From a virus: DNA of 20,017 nucleotides. Position numbers and translations under genes: made by a program. Shown here in pieces: positions 14,061-14,141 of this stretch. The stretch spans positions 1 to 20,017 of IMG/VR virus record IMGVR_UViG_3300005613_001798; one strand, given 5' to 3'. Position 1 is the first letter of the stretch; the number at the start of each line of letters is the position of its first letter. The notes beneath the pieces were generated by a model. That model searched no databases. It had not been told where the DNA came from and saw only the letters and a list, made by a program, of their open reading frames with translations.

Positions 14061-14087
14061 CAGCTCGCCTCGGCTGACATAGGAGGT
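14061..14087 (+). promoter_or_regulatory. H-type RNA pseudoknot in the capsid leader
   Basis: Stem 1 pairs 14061-14065 with 14072-14076 (CAGCU with GGCUG). Stem 2 pairs 14067-14071 with 14083-14087 (GCCUC with GAGGU, one G-U). Nothing separates the stems and loop 3 is ACAUAG (14077-14082). The layout is the same as at 10783-10813. Stem 2 would cover most of AGGAGG at 14081-14086, the ribosome-binding site of the upstream ORF at 14092. Confidence 0.6.
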
Positions 14088-14141
14088 TTACATGGTTCAA
14101 TTGCCCGACCAACATAGGGGCGAGACAAACAAAGTAAACCT
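14064..14141 (+). promoter_or_regulatory. Two long-range pairings in the capsid leader that compete with the pseudoknot
   Basis: CTCGCCTC (14064-14071) is complementary to GGGGCGAG (14117-14124; eight pairs, one G-U). AGGTTTAC (14084-14091) is complementary to GTAAACCT (14134-14141; eight perfect pairs). Both use bases needed for the pseudoknot stems, so the leader can adopt exclusive folds. The second pairing ends six bases before the capsid ATG. Confidence 0.5.

Follow-up and report, generated by a model that had tools for sequence, protein, structure and literature searches.

The DNA analysed here (hereafter the window) is a virus record of 20,017 bases with features typical of Bacteroidota, namely TAnnTTTG promoter elements and starts without Shine-Dalgarno (SD) sequences. 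At 14148-15200 on the plus strand it carries a monocistronic gene for a protein of 350 amino acids, whose start codon is kept in all relatives. This is probably the gene of the major capsid protein, an assignment by gene order only: we read it as the capsid gene because it sits after a charged, scaffold-like open reading frame, near a gene with a PHROG portal match, and is monocistronic between two terminators. The terminator scan placed these at 13990-14019, where an intrinsic terminator with a 13-bp stem and a T run ends the upstream operon, and at 15213-15240, 3' of the probable capsid gene (both on the plus strand). The product has no match in Pfam, the PHROGs or the PDB sequences. A motif match to the Bacteroidota -7 promoter element, TAACTTTG, is located at 14040-14047 on the plus strand (consensus TTTG/TAnnTTTG, PMC6847099), and a TAnnTTTG box lies 96-124 nt 5' of the start codon in the capsid leader of every intact relative. 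An A at position -3 of the start codon is present in all leaders. In comparisons of the window with its nearest relatives, identity is 82-91% in the leader, 64-72% in the adjoining upstream stretch and about 80-83% in the genes. Within the capsid gene, the initial 60 bases (14148-14207) are 90-92% conserved versus 80-84% for the remainder, and given this stretch the constraint on the leader may continue into the coding region.

Relatives of the leader were collected by protein and DNA-pattern scans of IMG/VR, in which the capsid-type leader is present in six phage lineages with 48-94% protein identity. By identity of the probable capsid protein these are the window with L001-L003 (93-94%), L013/L014 (78%), L018/L019 (66-67%), L007 (65%), L021/L022 (63-66%) and L011/L012 (48%). 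The capsid leader of L019 (1-6223, minus strand, upstream of 6042) comes without a promoter and without the 5' half of the first pseudoknot, which reflects either a contig joint or a real rearrangement or loss. No homologue of the capsid-type protein was found among 50,697 cultured phage records, and no relative in the genome collection searched. A Polaribacter phage considered as a cultured relative was discarded: a weak portal match is all that it shares, and neither its structural proteins nor the regions upstream of them look related. The hosts of the leader-bearing virus family are Bacteroidota.

Fold of the capsid leader

Five helices, termed S1, K1, B, K2 and C, recur in the six lineages with differing sequences. 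The 5' end of the leader forms an H-type pseudoknot, PK1 (14061-14087, plus strand), made up of stem S1 (CAGCT 14061-14065 with GGCTG 14072-14076), stem K1 (GCCTC 14067-14071 with GAGGT 14083-14087) and the loop L3, ACATAG (14077-14082). Both stems covary. Across eight leaders, four of the four counted pairs of S1 and likewise of K1 have changed on both sides; the S1 pair C14064/G14073, for example, is G/C in the nearest relatives. When S1 was fixed and the loop alone was shuffled, K1 reached a combined p of 0.0014, with the window (p 0.19) and L018 (p 0.69) not significant alone; a strand-swap test gave 1/720. In L018 K1 has 4 bp only. The pseudoknot that the first-pass annotation had proposed at this position is therefore real in the sense that compensatory change has kept it across lineages.

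A second H-type pseudoknot, PK2, absent from that annotation, is enclosed by helix B. Its stem K2 (TGGTT 14093-14097 with GACCA 14107-14111, spanning 14093-14111) covaries in part, two of four counted pairs doing so around an invariant GG/CC, and its loop-shuffle test, with C fixed and the loop alone shuffled, gave a combined p of 0.002. Stem C (TTGCCC 14101-14106 with GGGCGA 14118-14123, spanning 14101-14123) covaries in three of four counted pairs and is found in part by RNAalifold. The short GCCC/GGGC option noticed before (14103-14106 with 14118-14121) proved to be the core of this 6-bp stem, conserved by compensatory change. The ACATAGG repeat reported at 14077 and 14112 is also present, one copy forming the L3 loop of PK1 (14077-14082) and the other that of PK2 (ACATAG, 14112-14117). 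Helix B itself pairs GAGGTTTAC (14083-14091) with GTAAACCTT (14134-14142); RNAalifold recovers it, its core covaries and its 3' end lies 5 nt before the capsid AUG. The pairing AGGTTTAC/GTAAACCT (14084-14091 with 14134-14141), previously listed as one of two alternatives, is part of helix B and is kept by compensatory change as well. Loss of the complementary arms in phages that keep the gene had been named as grounds for giving up the proposal; for the 5' pseudoknot and helix B, the relatives were found to keep the arms.

A segment alignment of eight leaders, fitted to the fold and with helices assigned in knowledge of it, shows changes on both sides for 16 of 19 pairs; 99.3% of its cells are paired, against 67.5% in shuffles (0/500 match) and 36-45% with slid partners. 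Unfitted tests serve as a counterweight to this alignment. These are the loop shuffles with S1 or C fixed, where single lineages are often not significant alone, and RNAalifold on a sequence-only MAFFT alignment, which recovers S1, extended B and C. An unsupervised descriptor of a tandem pseudoknot plus helix found the fold in 7/8 leaders, while at most 17 of 500 shuffles contained any such fold and 0/500 one as good; the strict descriptor missed L022 solely through its longer B-K2 junction. For the window, any tandem fold occurred in 9/20,000 shuffles and a score as high in 0/20,000. Pseudoknot-free folding of the 95-nt leader yields -27.6 kcal/mol compared with -17.1 kcal/mol in shuffles (z -3.66, 0/200). 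The covariance models of Rfam 15 gave no match at the gathering threshold in the window or in ten related loci, and weak hits up to E 10 fall mainly on the upstream terminator, not on the leader fold. In the open-licence literature, searches turned up no account of a leader of this kind from phages of Bacteroidota. At the level of sequence, comparison between lineages and position in the transcription unit show that the probable capsid mRNA starts with a conserved, functional RNA, transcribed from its own Bacteroidota promoter, in which one H-type pseudoknot is followed by another that lies within helix B.

The outer five pairs of helix B and stem K1 both need GAGGT (14083-14087) and are hence mutually exclusive. 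RNAalifold recovers the extended form of helix B on the sequence-only alignment, and past the core the helix runs on further than it does when the tails are shuffled (combined p 5e-5 over six lineages). The extension has p values of 0.009 in L013, 0.002 in L022, 0.011 in L021, 0.024 in L012 and 0.02-0.04 in L001 and L002; it is borderline in L018 (0.06) and in the window (0.11) and absent by this test in L007 (0.66). L012 builds it from unrelated sequence, GAGTGT/ACACTC across a TT bulge. K1 and the B extension differ by no more than about 2.5 kcal/mol in stacking energy in the window, L001, L002, L013, L021, L022 and L012. In nested minimum-energy folds extended helix B forms, and the AUG itself is paired in some leaders. 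The exclusivity of K1 and B is thus likely to be conserved, though unequal in strength: it appears to hold in most lineages and is weak in L007 and L018. The first-pass annotation had likewise described exclusive folds by the start codon, and of these the competition between K1 and the extension of helix B appears to stand in most lineages. Its crossing stem CTCGCCTC/GGGGCGAG does not, having 8/8 pairs in the window and 6/8, 6/8 and 5/8 in the three nearest relatives. Since the stem is broken in relatives, the larger crossing pseudoknot that it would have formed is rejected.

A pseudoknot leader at a second virion-type gene

A gene at 10838-11383 (plus strand) encodes a probable abundant virion protein of tail type with 181 amino acids and has homologues in 11 of 12 related contigs. 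One member of its family matches a PHROG tail protein weakly (E 0.006). AlphaFold models are poor both for the capsid-type protein of 350 amino acids and for this one (pLDDT 34 and 33). A motif match to the Bacteroidota -7 element, again TAACTTTG, is found at 10755-10762 on the plus strand, and the gene starts 75 nt after this TAnnTTTG box, with a leader at 10763-10837. An H-type pseudoknot, not noticed in the first-pass annotation, occupies 10783-10813 (plus strand). It consists of a stem S1 (ATAGCT 10783-10788 with GGCTAT 10797-10802), a stem K (TCCGA 10792-10796 with TCGGA 10809-10813) and the loop L3, TCATAG (10803-10808). This pseudoknot was present in 9/9 leaders examined, with p of 0.0005-0.016 per leader and a combined p of about 3e-10 over six lineages; in a fitted alignment 8 of 9 pairs have changed on both sides. 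Its S1 begins 13-21 nt past the -7 box and, like the capsid leader, it often has CATA in L3. A strand competing near the AUG was seen in L028 only, so strand exchange is not common to the capsid and gene-10838 leaders.

The other TAnnTTTG leaders in the window and in five related phage genomes of 40-46 kb were too short, free of pseudoknots, or had chance or marginal scores that did not recur. The TAnnTTTG promoters at 4565 and 11851 lie 5-7 nt before start codons; their mRNAs would be nearly leaderless, unlike those with pseudoknot leaders. The region between the tail and head genes (7047-12730) has open reading frames that look, from their translations alone, like glycosyltransferases, sulfotransferases, methyltransferases and a GDP-mannose dehydratase, an unusual cargo for a small phage.

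Possible functions of the leaders

The expression of virion genes in tailed phages is commonly attributed to their promoters, terminators and ribosome-binding sites. We propose that the capsid leader controls translation initiation by strand exchange, as a bistable translational leader, and give this reading a probability of about one half. While PK1 holds 14083-14087, helix B would remain short and the ribosome would have free access to the A/U-rich bases that precede the AUG. Once PK1 opens, 14083-14087 would pair with 14138-14142, helix B would grow until only 5 nt separate it from the AUG, and this would hinder initiation. The open state is expected to form first, since PK1 consists solely of the earliest-transcribed RNA, and the balance might later be shifted by a protein of the phage or by the mRNA itself as it slowly relaxes. 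In F. johnsoniae, initiation depends on an A at -3 and on low structure near the start (PMC6847099). The leader stays a good candidate for the translational switch of the probable major capsid gene that had been suggested in the first-pass annotation, as exclusive folds appear to adjoin the start codon; the SD basis of that suggestion falls away. The separate pseudoknot leader of gene 10838 suggests a shared regulator of the two virion genes. We tentatively consider an RNA regulon, possible but clearly short of an even chance, in which one phage factor, possibly a virion protein, would read the capsid and tail-type leaders and set both ratio and timing of the structural proteins in hosts with ribosomes that disregard SD sequences, with strand exchange by the AUG as the capsid-specific gate.

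Several other functions have to be weighed against strand exchange. The 5' pseudoknots could be stability elements that shield two abundant virion transcripts from decay and do not switch at all. In both leaders the pseudoknot is near the promoter, both genes have the appearance of strongly expressed virion genes, terminators flank the capsid gene, whose mRNA is monocistronic, and the second leader misses the strand competition. Nevertheless, we think this rather unlikely, because a plain hairpin would be enough for protection and because it leaves unexplained the conserved helix B that reaches up to the AUG, PK2 and the competing strand retained in most lineages. A role in recruiting or positioning the ribosome, as an IRES-like or standby element in hosts without SD pairing, would fit the host-type promoters and -3A starts, the invariant GG/CC core of K2 and the fact that the structure stops a few nt 5' of the AUG in all lineages. 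Structure near the start, however, usually reduces initiation (PMC6847099), and beyond K2 no loop sequence is conserved, so that we rate this function as unlikely. A small-molecule riboswitch or thermosensor on the capsid gene seems more improbable still: there are almost no conserved unpaired nucleotides, unlike in a ligand pocket, and the leader fold has no Rfam match. Known riboswitches do use compact H-type pseudoknots, and both such pseudoknots and balanced alternative folds are seen here.

All strings named in the first-pass annotation are found where it placed them, CTCGCCTC/GGGGCGAG at 14064-14071 and 14117-14124 and AGGAGG at 14081-14086 included. The latter had been taken for a buried SD site, and its exposure might turn on the capsid gene or a leader open reading frame, for AGGAGG lies 5 nt before ATG 14092 (GTG in relatives). 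We regard this as very improbable. AGGAGG occurs in the window and its 93-94% relatives only and is absent from the five other lineages; its bases are explained as part of L3 and the 3' strand of K1 in PK1. It is situated some 60 nt from the capsid AUG, where a spacing of 5-9 nt from the regulated start would be called for. The leader open reading frame was dismissed, as it is not conserved: it has 27 codons in the window versus 8 in relatives, caused by a 1-nt indel that shifts the frame and the stop, and its start codon is missing in L013 and L012. Moreover, ribosomes of Bacteroidota sequester the anti-SD and do not recognise SD sequences (PMC9976891), and no gene for bS21, a candidate reader of AGGAGG, was found in four related contigs, which are possibly fragments. 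The idea that the inverted repeats are DNA operator sites of a transcription regulator can hardly be maintained either. The repeats do lie directly downstream of the promoter, but their sequence is wholly different between lineages while complementarity and the crossing H-type geometry are kept, and a protein-binding DNA site would be expected to retain its sequence.

Translational control by leader pseudoknots has been described before. In the gene 32 operator of T4 and RB69, the leader opens with a pseudoknot of about 28 nt, and an A/U-rich initiation region with less structure comes after it (PMC535899). The capsid leader resembles it in having an H-type pseudoknot near its 5' end, and the gene-10838 leader shares this layout. 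However, gp32 is a single-strand binding protein and the genes here are of virion type; the proteins downstream have no Pfam or PHROG match that would identify them as single-strand binding proteins. T4 gene 32 combines one pseudoknot with an SD sequence and UUAAA repeats, whereas two genes are concerned here and the capsid leader has two pseudoknots plus helix B. The rpsO (uS15) operator of E. coli and mycobacteria folds either into hairpins or into a pseudoknot, two conformations that exclude each other and of which the pseudoknot is the regulatory one (PMC8470358), and in principle the capsid leader may be comparable, with two exclusive conformations of its own. Yet rpsO is a host ribosomal protein gene served by SD-dependent ribosomes and has a single pseudoknot, and neither its sequence nor the gene is related to the capsid leader. 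As far as tested, the capsid leader belongs to neither the gene 32 nor the rpsO type. The rpsU (bS21) mRNA of Flavobacteriales is a comparable case within the Bacteroidota: it carries a strong SD-like sequence and is controlled at the level of translation (PMC9976891). It acts, however, through extended SD pairing with ribosomes that lack bS21, while the AGGAGG of the capsid leader is unconserved.

Judged from sequence comparison, the capsid leader has the appearance of an RNA switch for virus particle production that had not been described before. In phages of Bacteroidota, hosts in which SD control is not generally available, two virion-type genes are each preceded by a covarying pseudoknot RNA. 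The leader constitutes a new RNA family that is not in Rfam. It offers a compact model of SD-free translational control and is a possible part for tuning expression in Bacteroidota.
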